Source: a virus. Taken from it: 26,378 nucleotides of DNA. The notes below the pieces were generated by a model, which was not told the DNA's origin, made no database searches, and saw nothing but the letters and a program-made list of their open reading frames with translations. The translations under genes and the position numbers were made by a program. Positions 3,938-26,272 of this stretch are shown here, piece by piece. The DNA is taken from IMG/VR virus record IMGVR_UViG_3300012936_000139, positions 1 through 26,378 of that record; one strand, given 5' to 3'. Numbering within the stretch: position 1 is the first letter of the stretch; each line of letters opens with the position of its first letter.

Positions 3938-4213
3938 ATGGCTATGCAAGGTGGTCAAACCTTCAAAGACGAAAAGCCAAATAAAAAATATAAACCATAT
4001 AAAGGAATCGGTCGACTATATCACGGTCGGCCGGTTGTCTTTTATGCGACTGACGATCCAGAATTTCAAATGTGGATACACAAACGAAAAGAAAGAATCC
4101 GATTGGGTGTCATTTCTTTATTCTGGATATCCTTTGCATATATTGTGGGAGATATTTTTTATTTGCAAGTATATAAAGAAATGGTTGACAAAGCCGTTCG
4201 TTATATGCTATAA
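3938..4213 (+). CDS. Small membrane protein, unknown function
   Basis: 91 residues. A basic, hydrophilic N-terminal half (residues 1-54, including KPNKKYKPYKGIGRLYHGRP) is followed by one membrane segment near residues 56-78 (LGVISLFWISFAYIVGDIFY). I do not recognise the family. No clear Shine-Dalgarno sequence precedes the ATG; a second ATG lies two codons in. A longer ORF in another frame (3873-4247) covers the same stretch but reads as a shadow, because this frame has the coherent domain-plus-membrane layout. Its last 29 bases contain the predicted promoter for the tmRNA. Confidence 0.7.
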   Translation: MAMQGGQTFKDEKPNKKYKPYKGIGRLYHGRPVVFYATDDPEFQMWIHKRKERIRLGVISLFWISFAYIVGDIFYLQVYKEMVDKAVRYML

Positions 4214-4216
4214 ATA
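4185..4216 (+). promoter_or_regulatory. Predicted tmRNA promoter, overlapping a T4-late-like box
   Basis: TTGACA (4185-4190), an 18-base spacer ending in TGC (extended -10) and TATAAA (4209-4214). The same bases carry TATAAATA (4209-4216), the T4 late promoter box. Transcription would start near 4221, at the expected 5' end of the tmRNA acceptor piece. The promoter lies in the last codons of the preceding gene. Prediction from sequence only. Confidence 0.55.
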
Positions 4217-4221
4217 TAGTA

Positions 4222-4282
4222 CGATGTTGAAGCAATTCGAAAGGTGAACTGGACCCGGGGGCGGTACCCGGCAGCTCCACCA
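4222..4282 (+). ncRNA. ssrA: tmRNA acceptor piece (permuted, two-piece tmRNA)
   Basis: This is the 3' half of a tmRNA, placed before the 5' half, as in alphaproteobacterial permuted tmRNA. It contains a T-arm, CCGGG (4255-4259), a seven-base loop GGCGGTA, CCCGG (4267-4271), then the acceptor strand CAGCTCC (4272-4278), discriminator A and an encoded CCA (4280-4282). CAGCTCC pairs with GGGGCTG at 4485-4491 over seven pairs including G3-U70, the identity element for alanyl-tRNA synthetase. The T loop is not the canonical TTC sequence. The stretch GAAGC (4229-4233) could pair with GCTTC (4652-4656) of the other piece, tentatively. The exact 5' end is inferred from the promoter. Confidence 0.88.
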
Positions 4283-4294
4283 TAAGGACATTGA

Positions 4295-4483
4295 ATGGAA
4301 GTTATATGGCACATTCTACTTACTGTTTGTTTAGGCTCGACCTGCCTAGAACAAGATGTACAATGGTTTAAATCTGAAGTAGAATGTAATCAAATGTTGA
4401 AAGTGTATGCAAGTATGCCAGCAGATGGTGACTGGGATACAGTTGAATATATTTGTAAGCCAGTTGGGTCAATGTCTTTATGA
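4295..4483 (+). CDS. Small secreted cysteine protein encoded between the two tmRNA pieces
   Basis: 62 residues with a hydrophobic N-terminus (MEVIWHILLTVCLGS) and four cysteines. It carries an F-K-S-E-V-E-C motif and a C-terminal YICKPV, both shared with the protein at 19308-19541; the F-x-S-x-x-x-C part also occurs at 7098-7334. AAGGA (4284-4288) stands 6 bases before the ATG. The gene begins 13 bases after the CCA of the acceptor piece and its TGA ends one base before the coding piece, so it fills nearly the whole segment normally cut out of a permuted tmRNA precursor. Function unknown; export to membrane or periplasm is inferred from the N-terminus. Confidence 0.72.
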   Translation: MEVIWHILLTVCLGSTCLEQDVQWFKSEVECNQMLKVYASMPADGDWDTVEYICKPVGSMSL

Positions 4484-4484
4484 T

Positions 4485-4700
4485 GGGGCTGAAATAGGAT
4501 CGACAGGCGGTGATTAGGAAAGTGGAGTCGTCCGGCGCAAGCTCGGTTAACGCAAGAAAAACTATAAATGCAAACGATAACTTTGCACCTGAAGCGTTCA
4601 CTTCTTTGGACATGTCCATGGATCGTGAACTTATCGCAGCCTAGGTTGTGAGCTTCGCGGTATGGTACCACCGGGCAACAGAACGGGCCACTTTTTATCT
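4485..4700 (+). ncRNA. ssrA: tmRNA coding piece (permuted, two-piece tmRNA)
   Basis: The 5' half of the tmRNA. It starts with the acceptor strand GGGGCTG (4485-4491) and the conserved AGGATCGACAGG, a counterpart of the GGATTCGACGGG block of other tmRNAs. A likely pseudoknot region (about 4525-4560) precedes the resume codon GCA at 4570, and a 24-codon tag frame ends at TAG 4642-4644. GGTA-TGG-TACC and other short stems follow, then CTTTTTATC near 4692. Together with the acceptor piece it would be charged with alanine and rescue stalled ribosomes. The 3' end is approximate. The purine permease gene follows at 4719 with its own ribosome site. Confidence 0.88.
4570..4644 (+). other. tmRNA tag-peptide reading frame
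   Basis: From the resume codon GCA the frame reads ANDNFAPEAF, then TSLDMSMDR, then ELIAA and a TAG stop: 24 encoded residues. The ANDNFA opening matches alphaproteobacterial tags (Caulobacter begins ANDNFAEEF), and the hydrophobic-Ala-Ala end fits recognition by ClpX. Most known encoded tags are roughly 8-15 residues, with some longer ones, so this one is long. The middle acidic part is unlike the short tags I know. Confidence 0.85.
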
Positions 4701-4718
4701 TACTAATAGGAGACATAT

Positions 4719-6011
4719 ATGTTAGAAAAACTATTTGGATTGTCAGCAGCTAAGACGACTGTGAAAACAGAAGTCATGGCAGGGTTGGCAACCTTTCTTA
4801 CAATGGCTTATATTACTGTAGTGAATCCAGCTATTCTTTCAACTGAAGGAAGTGGTATGGGTTTTGGTGCTGTATTTACAGCAACTATTATCGCGGCAGT
4901 GATCGGTACATTGATTATGGGGCTATGGGCCAACTGGCCAGTAGCACTTGCACCAGGTATGGGACTAAATGCGTTCTTTACATTTGGTGTTATCTTTGGT
5001 ATGGGATATACCTATCAACAAGCACTAGCGGCTGTGTTTGTAGCAGGTCTAGTGTTTATTGCTTTAAGCGTAACACCAGCACGTAAATATATCATTAATA
5101 GTATTCCAAGAAGTATGAAACTTGGTGTAGGCGCAGGTATTGGCTTGTTTCTTGCTATTATTGGTCTTAAGAATGCAGGCGTGGTTGTAGATAACCCAGC
5201 AACATTAGTTGGCTTAGGTGATGTTACAAGCTGGCCGGTATTACTTACAGGCTTAGGTTTTATTATCATGGCAATCTTAGATAAACGTAAAGTACCAGGT
5301 GCAATTATCCTCGGTATTCTTGCTGTTTCTATTATTGCATGGGTAACAGGTATTTCAGATCTCAACGGATTAGCTGGTGCTATTCCAAATCCAGAACATG
5401 CTTTTAGCATGGATTTTAGTATGATTGCTACTGCTGGATTTATAGGAACTGCATTTGCATTCTTGTTTGTTGACTTTTTTGATACGGCAGGCACACTTAC
5501 AAGTGTTGCAAACCTTACCGGCAAAGTAAACAAAAAAGGTGAAGTTGAGCAAATTGATCGTGCATTATTAGCAGATTCGGTTGCAACAACCGCAGGTGCA
5601 TTGGTTGGTACATCTAATACTACATCATATATTGAAAGTGGTGCTGGTATTAAAGAAGGTGGAAAAACAGGTTTAACCGCAGTAGTTGTTGCAGGTTTAT
5701 TTGCACTATGTTTATTCTTTGCACCATTGGCGCAAAGCATTCCAGCTTTTGCAACTGCACCAGCACTAATTTTTATTGCTACATATTTCTTACGCAACAT
5801 TGCAGATATCGACTGGGATGATGTAACTGAATATGCTCCAGCAGTATTAGCGGCTGTTTTAATGCCTTTGACATTTAGTATTGCTCATGGTATTGCACTT
5901 GGTTTTATTGCTTACGCAGTAATTAAAGCCCTAAGTGGAAAACATGCAGAACTAAACGCAGGCAGTTTAGCTATTGCCGCAATCAGCGTCATTTACTTTA
6001 TCGCTGTATAA
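4719..6011 (+). CDS. AzgA-type purine (adenine/guanine/hypoxanthine) permease, NCS2 family
   Basis: A full-length 430-residue inner-membrane transporter with a dozen or more hydrophobic segments. Signatures of the AzgA/COG2252 branch are present: FLTMAYITVVNPAIL, ALAPGMGLNAFFTFGVIFG, FLFVDFFDTAGTLTSVA (the conserved acidic TM8 region) and GALVGTSNTTSYIESGAGI (TM10 region). The family takes up purine bases with protons. AGGAG precedes the ATG, and a strong terminator follows. No frameshift or missing signature is visible. A transporter of this size is unusual for a phage; with the GMP reductase at 14117 it suggests that the phage increases purine salvage in infected cells. Confidence 0.93.
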   Translation: MLEKLFGLSAAKTTVKTEVMAGLATFLTMAYITVVNPAILSTEGSGMGFGAVFTATIIAAVIGTLIMGLWANWPVALAPGMGLNAFFTFGVIFGMGYTYQQALAAVFVAGLVFIALSVTPARKYIINSIPRSMKLGVGAGIGLFLAIIGLKNAGVVVDNPATLVGLGDVTSWPVLLTGLGFIIMAILDKRKVPGAIILGILAVSIIAWVTGISDLNGLAGAIPNPEHAFSMDFSMIATAGFIGTAFAFLFVDFFDTAGTLTSVANLTGKVNKKGEVEQIDRALLADSVATTAGALVGTSNTTSYIESGAGIKEGGKTGLTAVVVAGLFALCLFFAPLAQSIPAFATAPALIFIATYFLRNIADIDWDDVTEYAPAVLAAVLMPLTFSIAHGIALGFIAYAVIKALSGKHAELNAGSLAIAAISVIYFIAV

Positions 6012-13496: not shown

Positions 13497-14117
13497 ATGG
13501 CAATGCATTCCGAATTGTGGTTCCCAAGTGTAATATGGTCAAGTGTTGTTCATGTTGTAGATAACATAGAATTTAAAAAATGGGCGTATGACAGAAAAAA
13601 TAATGATGTAGGAAGAGTCATTAGTAACTTTGGTGGTTATCAAAGCTCGGATATCCTACCTAGACAATCAACTCTTATAGATACTTTAGTTGGACATTTA
13701 AACACAGAAATAGACAACTGTGCAAGACAGGTAGGTTTAGGTCCAATGTCAATAATGAACATATGGTTAAACATAAATCCTCCAGGTGCATACAATCAAT
13801 TACATAATCATGTTGGAGCAACCTTTAGTGGAGTATATTATATCCACGGTGAAGAAAATCAAGGTAACATACAATTTGAAAGGAATGATGGTGCAGAATA
13901 TCATCTTCCGGATATTCCAGATCAAGTGACATATTATACATCATCAAGAGCAACATATAAAGCTAAGACAGGAGCTCTGTATATCTTTCCTGGATGGCTT
14001 AGACACAGTGTACAAGGTAATCAAAGTAACACTGATAGAATTAGTGTAAGTTTTAATTATGGTCCTGATGTAAGAAATTGGATAGGTATTAACAAAGAAG
14101 ACGGAGACGTAAAGTAA
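13497..14117 (+). CDS. 2OG-Fe(II) oxygenase, TIGR02466-like
   Basis: 206 residues from ATG 13497 (GAGG 8 bases upstream, within bS21). The C-terminal half has the pattern [46 protein letters not shown] and DRISVSFN, which I know from the TIGR02466 family of putative oxygenases. Metal ligands would be H103-x-H105 and H170, with R181 for 2-oxoglutarate; the first pair is H-x-H rather than H-x-D, as in this family. Substrate unknown. The stop overlaps the GMP reductase start (TAATG). Confidence 0.82.
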
Positions 14118-15286
14118 TGCGAATTGAAGAAGATGTCAAATTAGACTATAAGGACGTTCTTATTCGTCCGAAACGTTCAACATTAGGTAGTAGAAAAGAA
14201 GTAGACTTAGAAAGAGGATTTTCATTCCGTAACTATAAACCTTCAGAAATGACAATGGAGGATATACGTCCAGACTACAGAAATTGGAGAGGCATTCCAT
14301 TAATGGCAAGCAATATGGACGGAGTAGGAACATTTGAAATGGCAAATGTTCTCGCTGAACAGAAAATTATGACTTGTCTAGTTAAAACTTATACAGTGGC
14401 ACAACTTGTAAATTATTTTGAGACAGGTGGAGTCACACCCGAAAGAACAAATTATGTTGCAATGAGTATTGGAATTACAGATGCTGATCATGATAAGTTC
14501 CGAAAAGTTTACGAACAGACTGATACACAATTAAAATATGTGTGTATTGATGTAGCAAACGGTTATTCAGAAAGATTTGCGGCTTTTGTAAAAGAGTTTA
14601 GAAATTTATATCCGCATGTCGTTATTATTGCAGGAAATGTAGTAACAGGTGAAATGACAGAAGAGTTGTTGTTGAATGGAGCAGATATTGTCAAAGTGGG
14701 TATTGGCCCTGGTAGTGTTTGCACTACTAGAATACAGACTGGTGTTGGATATCCGCAGTTGTCCGCAGTCATAGAATGTGCAGATGCGGCACATGGCCTT
14801 GGTGGACATGTTATAGCTGATGGTGGTTGTACTTGTCCTGGAGACATTGCGAAAGCATTTGCTGGCGGTGCTGATTATGTAATGCTAGGAGGTATGTTAG
14901 CAGGACATGATGAAGGTGGCGGAGAAGTAGTAACAAAATATTACAAAACTGGTGAATGGGTCAAAGAAGAACAACAAGCCGCACAAGGTGGCCCTATTAG
15001 CGTCAGTTGGAAAGATAAAATAGATAGGAAACAATTCGTGCAGTTTTACGGCATGAGCAGTAAAGCCGCAAACGACAAACATTTCGGTGGTCTTAAGGAA
15101 TATAGGGCTTCGGAAGGCAGGGATGTGCTGGTACCTTACAGAGGATCTGTGATGCATAGCATACAAGAAATACTCGGAGGTATCCGCTCTACCTGCACTT
15201 ATGCAGGAGCACAAAGGCTAAAACATTTAATGAGATGCACTACATTTGTTAGATGTACAAAACAGTTCAATGATGTGTATGCATGA
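14117..15286 (+). CDS. guaC: GMP reductase
   Basis: NADPH-dependent deamination of GMP to IMP. 389 residues against ~347 in E. coli. Key residues align: catalytic C202 and T204 in [20 protein letters not shown] (E. coli C186, T188), K90 (K77) and E333 in EYRASEG (E289); D145 and G-rich IADGGC and [14 protein letters not shown] are also present. About 27 extra residues lie between GGGE and FYGMSS, rich in Lys/Glu/Gln. An IMP dehydrogenase would have a different flap (no R-Y motif here), so GuaC is the better call. It overlaps the oxygenase by one base and the next gene by four (ATGA). Confidence 0.93.
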
Positions 15287-16124: not shown

Positions 16125-16436
16125 ATGACAATAGCAACAGATACAGAAATTAAGTTAGACGAAAAGATAGAAAAAACTATCGATGAACCAGGAAAGTATC
16201 ACGTAATTTTTCTTAACGATGATTCAACTCCTATGGAGTTTGTTATAGAGATGTTAACTCATGTTTTCAAACACTCTAAAGAAACTGCTGAAAAAATTAT
16301 GTTAGAAATACACAACAATGGTAGTGGTATTGCTGGCACTTTTAATTTTGAAATAGCAGAACAAAAAGCAAACGAAACCATATCATATGCTCGAGGAAAT
16401 GGCTTTCCACTAAATATCAAGATAGAGAAAGCATAA
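16125..16436 (+). CDS. clpS: ClpS, N-degron adaptor for ClpAP
   Basis: 103 residues. ClpS delivers proteins with bulky N-terminal residues to ClpA and inhibits ClpA action on ssrA-tagged proteins. Recognition residues are intact: FLNDDSTPMEFV (N31, D32, D33, T35, M37) and H63 in EIHNNGSGIAG; the C-terminal FPLNIKIEKA fits the family. The first 22 residues form the flexible extension that reaches ClpA. AAGGA lies before the ATG. Heme oxygenase starts 5 bases after its stop. Phage ClpS genes are rare to my knowledge. Confidence 0.95.
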   Translation: MTIATDTEIKLDEKIEKTIDEPGKYHVIFLNDDSTPMEFVIEMLTHVFKHSKETAEKIMLEIHNNGSGIAGTFNFEIAEQKANETISYARGNGFPLNIKIEKA

Positions 16437-16440
16437 CAAT

Positions 16441-17007
16441 ATGAGCAACTTAAAACAACTAACGTGGGAACATCACAAAAACGCAGAAAGACAATCGTTT
16501 GTAAAAGTCTTAATGAGTGGTAAAATTAATCCTAAATTTTATGCCACTTACCTTTGGAATCAACATAAAAAATATGACATACTAGAAGCCATGGCATTTG
16601 CCCAAGGATGTTTAGATGGACTTGTTGATATAAAAAGAAAAATGAAAATAGAACAAGACTTTGTTGAACTGTGGAAAGATGATGAAATGCCTATGTTGGT
16701 AGAAAGCACACACGAATACATGAGACATATGAAAACAATAATGACTGATCCAGATAAACTTATGGCTCATGTCTACGTTTTACATATGGGTGATCTAAGT
16801 GGCGGACAAATGATTAAAAAGAAAGTGCCTGGCGAAGGTCGTATGTATACTTTTGATACAGACAAAGCTGAATTGAAAGAAGCTATCAGGGCAAAGACAA
16901 ATGATAGCATGGCAGATGAAGCAAAGTGGGTGTTTGATTCTGCAACCAAGTTGTTCCAAGAATTAATGGAGATTGATATTGAGCATTATATGGAACAAGC
17001 TGATTGA
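16441..17007 (+). CDS. Heme oxygenase
   Basis: Opens heme to biliverdin, releasing iron and CO. 188 residues. The proximal ligand is H12 in LTWEHHKNAERQSF (the H-x-x-A-E pattern); the distal helix is AHVYVLHMGDLSGGQMIKKK with the G-D-L-S-G-G-Q signature. Length is near a compact bacterial/phage HO. No good ribosome site is visible before the ATG, which sits 5 bases after the clpS stop, so coupling is likely. The bilin reductase gene overlaps its end, pointing to a two-step pathway. Confidence 0.93.
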   Translation: MSNLKQLTWEHHKNAERQSFVKVLMSGKINPKFYATYLWNQHKKYDILEAMAFAQGCLDGLVDIKRKMKIEQDFVELWKDDEMPMLVESTHEYMRHMKTIMTDPDKLMAHVYVLHMGDLSGGQMIKKKVPGEGRMYTFDTDKAELKEAIRAKTNDSMADEAKWVFDSATKLFQELMEIDIEHYMEQAD

Positions 17008-17671
17008 TTGTAAAGATCAAATTATAGACATATTCAACGAACAAGCAACTGAAATTGACGAACCTGGATTAGATTATTTTAACCGTCCTGACAGTGGATG
17101 GATAAACAGAGTGTGGGCTAATGATTATGTCCGTAGGGCTCACATAGATGTAGTCGATGCTCGAGATTCTAAAGGCTTATGGATGATGCATGTTTGCATT
17201 TTTCCAACACTAGACAATCCTGCACCTATATATGGCTTCGATGTAATAGCAGGTAAAAACAAGATGACAGGCGCATTCCATGACTTTTCACCAAGTGCTG
17301 ATCCAGATCACGATATGATACAAGGTTACTATGAAAGTGTTGAACACTTTGTACCTGAAAAGCAACGTGAGCTTCCTGAATGGGCTAGAAACATTTTTAC
17401 AGGCAAAATGCTTGCCGCTGGCAATGTTAAAACAGACGAAGAAGCAACAGAAATTATACGTATAGCACTAAGCAATCTACATGCATACTTTGCCGAAGTA
17501 GGTGCTACAAAAGGCTACGGTGATCAAGATTTAGTAGCGGCGTCACAAAACTATTACTGCCATAATCAGCAACAAAACCCACACACAGCTAACGTAATGA
17601 AGTCTCTAGGCTTACCAGAAGAAGATGTAGATCGCTTCTGCACAGATATGTTGTTTCCTAAACTTGCATAA
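16979..17671 (+). CDS. Ferredoxin-dependent bilin reductase (PcyX/PebS-like)
   Basis: Reduces biliverdin to a phycobilin. 230 residues from TTG 16979, preferred because TGGAG lies 7 bases upstream; TTG 16973 is the alternative, and there is no ATG before the core. The family core is clear: HVCIFPTLDNPAPIYGFDVI followed by AGKNKMTGAFHDFSP. H71 and D88 are 17 residues apart, matching the H88/D105 pair of PcyA. The YGFDVIAGK and HDFSP blocks are closest to PcyA-type enzymes. The viral reductase PcyX, described from ocean metagenomes beside a heme oxygenase, is the nearest known analogue; product (phycoerythrobilin) is inferred. It overlaps heme oxygenase by 29 bases. Confidence 0.9.
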   Translation: MSIIWNKLIDCKDQIIDIFNEQATEIDEPGLDYFNRPDSGWINRVWANDYVRRAHIDVVDARDSKGLWMMHVCIFPTLDNPAPIYGFDVIAGKNKMTGAFHDFSPSADPDHDMIQGYYESVEHFVPEKQRELPEWARNIFTGKMLAAGNVKTDEEATEIIRIALSNLHAYFAEVGATKGYGDQDLVAASQNYYCHNQQQNPHTANVMKSLGLPEEDVDRFCTDMLFPKLA

Positions 17672-23078: not shown

Positions 23079-23312
23079 ATGAAAATAAAATATGAACAAA
23101 AGTGTAAAGTAATTTGTAATGATAACGACAAAGAAGTAGAAGCTGACATAATGTCTTTTACTCCTGAAAGCAGACTCATAGTTGCTATTGCTGGTAACAA
23201 AATTCAGCTAAATTATAACAACCACGGAATGTATATAGGCAATAAAGTGGGAATGGAGTTTATAAGTGAAGGACCAAAAAGTTATGAAATCAATATGGGG
23301 AGAGTACGTTAA
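23079..23312 (+). CDS. Small hypothetical protein
   Basis: 77 residues of beta-type pattern ([54 protein letters not shown]). It starts one base after the preceding stop and overlaps the clpP start by one base. Similar short proteins occur near clpP-like genes in marine phages by my recollection, but I cannot name a family. Confidence 0.7.
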
Positions 23313-23896
23313 TGCCTAATTTAGTTCCTGTAGTTATTGAAAAAGAAAGTCGTGGCGAACGTTCATATGACATTTATTCTAGGCTTTTAAAAGATAGAAT
23401 CATCATGCTTGATACAGATGTCAATCAGATGAGTGCGAGTTTGATCGTTGCACAAATGTTATTCTTAGAGTCGGCTAATAAAGAAAAGCCAATTAATTTT
23501 TATATTAACAGCCCAGGTGGAAGTGTTACAGCAGGCATGAGTATATACGATACTATGCAATTAATTAAATGTCCTGTGCATACTATTGTTATTGGTATGG
23601 CGGCTTCAATGGGTAGTTTTTTAGCAAGTGCTGGAGAAAAAGGTAAAAGAATGGTGTTGCCTAATTCAAGGCATATGATCCATCAACCACTTGGCGGTAC
23701 ATCAGGACAAGCAAGTGATGTTGAGATCCAGTACAAAGAATTACAATTTTGGAAAGATAGATTGACAGAGTTGTATGCAAAACACACTGGTCAGCCTGTA
23801 GACATATTACAAGCTGATATGGATAGAGATAATTTTATGAGTGCAGAAAAGGCAGTAGAATATGGACTCGCAGATCGTATCATCGAAAGTCGCTGA
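23312..23896 (+). CDS. clpP: ATP-dependent Clp protease proteolytic subunit
   Basis: 194-residue serine peptidase that forms the degradation chamber used by ClpX or ClpA. The triad is intact: S99 ([16 protein letters not shown]), H124 ([20 protein letters not shown]) and D173 ([19 protein letters not shown]). The [16 protein letters not shown] block is present. Length equals mature ClpP, with little or no propeptide. No ATPase gene is visible in the window, so it would use the host ClpX or ClpA. Its start overlaps the preceding stop by one base. Confidence 0.97.
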
Positions 23897-25570: not shown

Positions 25571-26272
25571 ATGATTTTTATTGCCGCACCATTTGGAAAC
25601 TATATACACCGTAAAGATACTGTTAGTGTTACGGGAACATTTACTGTAGATCCACGTCCTGGCAGATTAAAAGCAATAATTAAAACTCTACGATATACCA
25701 AACAGGGTTGGAGGAACAAATTAGGTTTACGTAATCCTGGTTTACATGCTGGTATGTTTAAAACAAGTTATAATGATGTGCTAAGTGTAGCGGCTATAAA
25801 TCCTACAGATTGGACAAAAATACAAATGGCAATAAGCACACAACGTAATATAGAATTGAATGTAAGTTGTCCTAATTTAGATTCACATGACGACACAACA
25901 ACTTGGGAAAGTTTTGAAAAGTTTCCCGAAAGAATGACAGGCGATTACTGTATTGTAAAGATTCCTCCAACGAGTAGCGAAGAATTGATTGATAAAATAG
26001 TAGATATGGGATATACACAGATACATGCAAGTAATACCTTGCCAACAGACAAAGGTGGATTAAGTGGTAAAACACTTGTTCCTTATACACTAAAAATTAT
26101 ACAGTATATAAAAAACAAGTATTCAAATATAGAAGTAGTAGCAGGTGGTGGAATCACTTCACCACAAGATGCACAAACATATTACGATGCAGGTGCTGAT
26201 CATATCAGTTTAGGATCGGTATGTTTCACACCTTGGAAAATAAAAAAAATTATTCACTTGACTAATTCTTAA
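25571..26272 (+). CDS. Dihydroorotate dehydrogenase-like flavoprotein (short)
   Basis: 233 residues, shorter than the ~310 of class 1 PyrD. Class 1 features can be read: TGTFTVDPRPGR, IELNVSCPN with C100 in the place of the catalytic Cys, VKIPP with K130 (FMN lysine), IHASNTLPTDKGGLSGKTLV, and the FMN phosphate loop VVAGGGITSPQDA with AGADHISLGS. It would oxidise dihydroorotate to orotate in pyrimidine synthesis, or be a related oxidoreductase; the compact size leaves the substrate open. No clear Shine-Dalgarno sequence is visible. Confidence 0.82.
   Translation: MIFIAAPFGNYIHRKDTVSVTGTFTVDPRPGRLKAIIKTLRYTKQGWRNKLGLRNPGLHAGMFKTSYNDVLSVAAINPTDWTKIQMAISTQRNIELNVSCPNLDSHDDTTTWESFEKFPERMTGDYCIVKIPPTSSEELIDKIVDMGYTQIHASNTLPTDKGGLSGKTLVPYTLKIIQYIKNKYSNIEVVAGGGITSPQDAQTYYDAGADHISLGSVCFTPWKIKKIIHLTNS

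Follow-up and report, generated by a model that had tools for sequence, protein, structure and literature searches.

The tmRNA locus and its spacer

The question raised by this locus is whether the spacer of a split tmRNA can also be the seat of a protein gene. The tmRNA is an RNA that rescues stalled ribosomes, and its two-piece form matures by removal of a spacer, which has so far been treated as discarded filler. The window, i.e., the whole stretch of marine phage DNA analysed here with a length of 26,378 nucleotides, contains a permuted tmRNA of the alphaproteobacterial type at about 4222-4692, in which the acceptor piece lies upstream of the coding piece. Both Rfam covariance models scored above their cut-offs, namely alpha_tmRNA (RF01849; 4181-4692, 120.7 bits, E 9.6e-33, cut-off 50) and tmRNA_permuted (RF04321; 4222-4644, 104 bits, cut-off 47); an ARAGORN run on the window missed the tmRNA. 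The acceptor stem is formed by seven pairs, including G3-U70, between CAGCUCC (4272-4278) and GGGGCUG (4485-4491). Since the 3' acceptor strand with its ACCA (4279-4282) ends at 4282 and the coding piece starts with GGGGCUG at 4485, the spacer corresponds to 4283-4484. The sequence-only reading had placed a 62-codon gene in this segment, which proved exact to the base: the frame fills the spacer except for 12 nt of leader and a single base at the end, the ATG begins at the 13th base after the CCA, the UGA ends one base before the coding piece, and an AAGGA is present at 4284-4288. The features of the locus are listed in Table 1.

Table 1. Features of the permuted tmRNA locus and of the gene in its spacer (window positions).
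Feature	Position	Strand	Basis
Promoter-like TTGACA - 18 nt - TATAAATA, directly before the pre-tmRNA	4185-4216	+	Sequence
Acceptor piece (3' part: T arm, 3' acceptor-stem strand, encoded CCA)	4222-4282	+	RF04321, RF01849
Intervening segment (IVS, spacer), 202 nt, CCA to coding piece	4283-4484	+	
IVS helix 5' strand, identical with the whole ORF leader (UAAGGACAUUGA)	4283-4294	+	12/12 pairs with 4469-4480
Shine-Dalgarno (SD) AAGGA within the helix	4284-4288	+	Sequence
62-codon ORF MEVIWHILLTVC...KPVGSMSL, four-cysteine beta-beta-alpha-beta protein	4295-4483	+	dN/dS, homologs, AlphaFold2
IVS helix 3' strand, last four sense codons of the ORF, TCA ATG TCT TTA (S-M-S-L)	4469-4480	+	
UGAU leader ahead of the RNase P site, with the ORF stop as its UGA	4481-4484	+	
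tmRNA coding piece (5' acceptor-stem strand through tag and 3' structures)	4485-4692	+	RF01849 to 4692
Tag reading frame ANDNFAPEAFTSLDMSMDRELIAA-stop	4570-4644	+	Within ORF 4510-4644

In the majority of ORF-bearing relatives the promoter-like element recurs with the same spacing, at about -98/-75 relative to the CCA end; it was passed over by a sigma-70 scanner for which the second hexamer has to end in T. The tag frame of the window shows the GCA AAC GAY start and the AA end, and ANDN..AA is kept in the tags of ORF-bearing relatives.

Several other genes were noted on the same phage fragment. With ClpS (16125-16436, 3.9e-28) and ClpP (23312-23896, 2.9e-80), the tagging RNA, an adaptor and a protease subunit are found together in one phage. 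A xanthine/uracil-type permease gene (4719-6011, 1.1e-51) directly follows the tmRNA and, together with an IMPDH/GMP reductase (14117-15286) and a dihydroorotate dehydrogenase-like gene (25571-26272), suggests nucleotide salvage. At 16441-17671, genes for a heme oxygenase and, after it, a ferredoxin-dependent bilin reductase (Fe_bilin_red, 5e-17) make up a phage bilin pathway pair, and a 58-aa lysine-rich ORF at 3755-3931 matches Histone H1-like Hc1 (8.8e-12).

Conservation and predicted structure of the spacer gene

Scanning IMG/VR with the window protein yielded 90 homologs, from which 80 loci were kept, and the copies nested in tmRNAs were gathered with the help of three pattern scans, of which two targeted the tmRNA coding piece and one the start of the spacer. 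The reading frame, whose conservation in relatives the sequence-only reading had singled out as decisive, is kept in at least 23 distinct nested copies, the tmRNAs of which have eight acceptor-stem types, each with its two strands pairing across the spacer. Stems that flank the ORF covary, with U70 in all recovered stem types; because the differing stems stay paired and the tags stay ANDN..AA, the tmRNA is maintained too. With the terminal helix left out, the nested copies have a median dN/dS of 0.18 and a pooled pN/pS of 0.32, as opposed to pN/pS values of 0.76 and 1.98 for the same alignment in shifted frames, and the variable sites are distributed over codon positions 1/2/3 as 31/25/51. A chance frame was rejected on the basis of dN/dS and of the shifted-frame, shuffle and antisense controls. 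A real, conserved gene lies in the spacer of a tmRNA scoring over 100 bits, and the proposal that the precursor would be both an mRNA and a structured RNA is supported.

An AlphaFold2 model, calculated from an alignment of the window protein with the fetched loci, predicts a compact strand-strand-helix-strand fold with a mean pLDDT of 90, in which only the last residues are unordered. Residues 5-13 would form core strand 1 of this beta-beta-alpha-beta domain (pLDDT 91-94), and since the predicted fold uses the hydrophobic stretch near the N-terminus as strand 1, secretion of the product, as suggested earlier, is unsupported. The 62-aa product has no significant match in PHROGs, Pfam or PDB sequences, and with regard to a homing-endonuclease cargo, no nuclease domain was detected in these databases or in the small predicted fold. 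With Foldseek, only small phage proteins lacking characterisation matched, and weakly (E 4.5e-3 at best), while nothing significant turned up in the PDB (best E 0.66); 8g9s_A, a chain of 70 residues from a CRISPR-Cas3 entry of type I-C, reached a TM of 0.68, but was discarded as too weak at E 0.76. A host-derived gene was likewise dismissed, as a search of 297 SAR11-order genomes, run without a positive control, did not detect the protein.

Homologs of the 62-aa protein are also located at other places in phage genomes. Its tree indicates several moves between the spacer, tRNA-flanked and other sites, to be read with care given the few columns, and a single origin of the nested gene was rejected, as the tree needs at least 3-4 location changes (62 columns, weak forks). 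At eight loci (L133, L140, L171, L172, L174, L187-L189) the gene directly follows a tRNA with a Thr(TGT)-like anticodon arm, and in several of them a tRNA-Leu-like gene comes next, therefore placing it again within a stretch that tRNA processing would excise.

Spacer helix and ribosome-binding site

In viral spacers, the 11-12 bases right after the CCA pair with a stretch whose end lies four bases ahead of the coding piece. Among the matches listed, these pairs covary over 181 viral spacers of at least 36 nt, long and short, and the median helix has 11 bp compared with a mean of 4.8 in shuffles, a control that, like the other shuffles used here, ignores phylogeny. UGAU ends the spacer in 72/89 long and 78/92 shorter viral spacers, again among the matches listed. 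In the window, the helix of 12 bp pairs the whole ORF leader, including AAGGA, with the S-M-S-L codons, and the local fold has a z of -6.3 relative to shuffles. Translation and folding of the tmRNA draw on the same bases and have to compete for them. The helix measures 12-15 bp in the nested copies (7 bp in one); homologs that do not lie in tmRNAs reach only 3-9 bp, no more than shuffles do, and the S-L tail is mostly absent from them. The helix was therefore rejected as a property of the gene itself; since it is long in nested copies only, it belongs to the tmRNA spacer and the ends of the ORF were fitted to it, so that the gene took over elements already present.

Base-pair probabilities of growing transcripts, which assume equilibrium, predict an SD opening of about 0.45-0.62 as long as the transcript ends at or before 4475, of 0.018 at 4480 and of 0.002 at 4484. 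For 52 ORFs with an SD in or at the helix, the mean predicted opening is 0.57 before and 0.10 after closure; in other cargo ORFs the SD lies beyond the helix (11) or none was found (12). Among the matches listed, AAGGA occupies this site in 19/52 long spacers as opposed to 2/70 short ones, and an SD at spacer positions +2..+6 is enriched in long spacers (p 9e-7).

Spacer genes in other viral tmRNAs

The phenomenon is general and extends beyond the window, to which the sequence-only reading was confined. The dataset comprised 232 distinct viral permuted tmRNAs among the matches listed, including family-targeted fetches; the IMG/VR contigs are partly redundant and were merged only where spacer-plus-stem pairs were identical. 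Viral spacers range from 5 to 499 nt with a median of 94, and 89/232 among the matches listed reach at least 120 nt, whereas 110 bacterial spacers from GTDB contigs have a median of 29 and a maximum of 116, so that 0/110 reach 120 nt. A single ATG ORF takes up at least 70% of the spacer in 84% of the long viral spacers among the matches listed, compared with 6% of shuffled and 8% of antisense sequences, and the longest ATG frame covers on average 82% of them (shuffled 36%, antisense 29%). With the two coding-piece pattern scans alone, 40/188 tmRNAs (21%) among the matches listed carry a spacer ORF, taken here as a frame that begins with ATG, has 30 codons or more and covers at least 60% of a long spacer.

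Grouped by sequence, the spacer frames form at least 27 clusters; for many of these, homologs exist at other sites in phage DNA, and one of them belongs to DUF6356 (5e-12). Eight other cargo families with 2-7 sequences each are likewise under purifying selection, with median dN/dS values of 0.08-0.42, e.g., MDFHW 0.08, MKNP 0.19, MWIYKC 0.21 and MFKWL 0.25. A (P/V)KYLxG-type motif is common to several otherwise different spacer ORFs (L422, L090, L199, L196, L170, L394), hinting at a larger cargo superfamily. Nine cargo frames (L011, L026, L030, L052, L067, L070, L060, L385, L323) continue past the spacer for 13 bases of the coding piece, most of them terminating at the TAG in GAAATAGG, so that the message would lose its stop codon upon cleavage by RNase P. 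Altogether, the stop lies past the RNase P site in 21/75 ORF-bearing spacers. The permuted tmRNAs of Sinorhizobium phage Phosso and of Roseobacter phage DSS3P8 contain no convincing spacer ORF. The spacer of Phosso (L500) spans roughly 410 nt (about 511-918) and is perhaps a structured RNA, and a GOLLD RNA (L498, 245-678) lies just upstream of the DSS3P8 tmRNA.

Exchange of spacer cassettes

The permuted-tmRNA spacer of marine phages is a swappable cassette slot, as closely related tmRNAs carry different contents. The tmRNA exons of L120, which carries the 62-aa gene, and of L031 with an unrelated spacer of 106 nt are 93% identical; those of L011 (MDFHW) and L061, whose 28-nt spacer is empty, are 98% identical; and L151 with the 62-aa gene shares 91% exon identity with L360 and L328, both empty (39 and 45 nt). 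Likewise, the nearest exon neighbours of L123, L131, L191, L347 and L484, all with the 62-aa cargo, have other or empty spacers.

Comparison with known systems

The window shares the acceptor piece, the spacer, the coding piece, G3-U70 and the tag frame with the permuted alphaproteobacterial tmRNA (RF01849 / RF04321). However, listed tmRNA genes of the SAR11 order span 181-189 nt as opposed to 423 in the window, and the 110 bacterial permuted tmRNAs sampled have no long ORF-filled spacers, unlike those of phages. In the 2025 tmRNA database paper, with its curated set of 97,179 tmRNA genes, the text gives one tRNA gene and one repeat in spacers and no protein genes (PMC11915505). Group I introns with homing endonuclease genes (HEGs) in tmRNA genes, found in 36/883 intron forms (PMC11915505), likewise place a protein gene within a removed tmRNA segment, but they reside at a T-loop site, are self-splicing and have a homing nuclease as cargo, whereas the phage spacers hold many unrelated cargos and no recognised nuclease.

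A close analogy is provided by I-TevI in the td group I intron of T4, where the ORF lies in a loop of the removed segment, its ribosome-binding site is sequestered in a hairpin, its 3' end contributes to the structure needed for processing and unrestrained translation harms splicing (PMC2988022). Comparably, the spacer ORF lies in a loop with its end in the processing structure, and its ribosome-binding site is predicted to be paired in the full transcript (0.002) and freed in shorter ones (about 0.45-0.62). Unlike td, the window spacer contains neither ribozyme nor homing nuclease and would undergo tRNA-type excision without re-ligation; unlike I-TevI, the codons of the ORF itself mask the SD, and a private late promoter within the segment is not evident. 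Because a group I intron core is lacking, no intron family having been detected in the window with Rfam, the spacer ORF is an analogue of the T4 intron ORF and not a member of that class.

An isolated example is the Methylophilales phage Melnitz, which is described in the accessible part of its report as a marine myophage with a two-piece tmRNA, ssrA (PMC9004378). Its 142-nt spacer holds another conserved ORF of the MFKWL family, which is unannotated and has an SD (GGAG) at the helix end, while a homolog of the 62-aa gene lies just upstream; that part of the report does not mention the spacer ORF (PMC9004378). In a BLAST search for annotated isolates with the 62-aa cargo in the spacer, only Melnitz surfaced, carrying this different cargo.

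Proposed mechanism and alternative explanations

We consider it probable that the spacer acts as a cargo slot whose gene is expressed from the nascent precursor until folding and maturation put an end to it. In the pre-tmRNA, a hairpin would connect both strands of the acceptor stem, with the small phage gene in its apical loop, and in the window it would be transcribed within the pre-tmRNA from the tmRNA's own promoter, although upstream genes could also supply read-through transcripts. The ribosome-binding site would form one strand of the spacer helix; the opposite strand would be supplied by the last four codons, and the UGA would belong to the conserved UGAU leader. While the polymerase copies the roughly 190 nt after the SD, the latter would be open and ribosomes could load; as the 3' strand emerges, the helix would shut the SD, RNase P and 3' processing would cut out the spacer, and the two-piece tmRNA would assemble. 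Cleavage of the phage precursors is expected by analogy with what is established for two-piece tmRNAs. With the SD open only before closure, protein output would thus be confined to the nascent, unprocessed precursor and ended by maturation. The predicted SD closure is thermodynamic only, and a loaded ribosome could hold the helix open; moreover, SD gating is not universal, because of the cargo ORFs with an SD beyond the helix or none found, and some long spacers, such as that of Phosso, speak against a general cargo role in that they have no ORF. A feedback, by which maturation turns the spacer message into a non-stop or near-non-stop one so that ribosomes are rescued and the product is tagged by the tmRNA just made, is conceivable but doubtful. 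After cleavage, the message would be of the non-stop type in 21/75 ORF-bearing spacers and near-non-stop in the window, where the stop lies one base from the end. If this were true, protein output would report or limit tmRNA maturation, and the tags and the phage's own ClpP and ClpS would clear the spacer product.

It is possible, though somewhat improbable, that the genes are tolerated passengers, real and translated, for which the spacer is a neutral landing site within a gene-dense phage genome, the overlap of SD and helix is non-regulatory and the helix serves processing only. The diverse, swappable cargo, the empty spacers between 91-98% identical exons, the several ORFs with an SD outside the helix and the homologs residing elsewhere in phage genomes all agree with such passengers. 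However, unrelated families (62-aa, MDFHW, MWIYKC, MAKYR, L043, L385) use the helix strand as SD, and long spacers are enriched in AAGGA at this place, even though an unpaired SD could readily evolve in the loop. The sequence-only reading had offered a positive link between maturation and output, with processing freeing the ORF as a separate, translated mRNA. Excision would indeed yield a 202-nt RNA with SD, ORF and stop, but this RNA retains the 12-bp helix and its SD is predicted to stay closed (P unpaired 0.012), the stop codon lies one base from its 3' end, and in the 21 spacers mentioned excision would cut the ORF. We therefore regard a release of usable message as very unlikely; silencing by maturation fits better, because the helix persists in the excised spacer.

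Two further readings question the gene or the tmRNA itself. That no protein is made and the frame is a by-product of RNA structure or chance could draw on the spacer folding better than shuffles (z -6.3), but is hardly credible in view of dN/dS and the shifted-frame controls, the homologs outside tmRNAs, which lack the helix, and the confident predicted fold. A decaying tmRNA pseudogene overrun by genes has nothing direct in its favour; a phage could in principle use the host tmRNA, and a tmRNA is present in 265/297 SAR11-order genomes. The Rfam scores exceed 100 bits, and the ORF-bearing loci have retained U70, their tag frames and acceptor stems that covary, which makes such decay extremely unlikely.

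Significance of the spacer genes

No report of protein genes in tmRNA spacers was found in a literature search that covered only a minority of subscription papers and preprints, and this use of the spacer is apparently undescribed. About a fifth of the sampled marine phage permuted tmRNAs (40/188, among the matches listed) carry a spacer ORF, which reveals a class of phage genes overlooked by annotation. One transcript would serve in turn as mRNA, tRNA-like RNA and tag template, providing a natural system for how translation and the maturation of a structured RNA share one molecule. In addition, the cargo genes offer a testable explanation for the retention of long-spacer permuted tmRNAs by phages.
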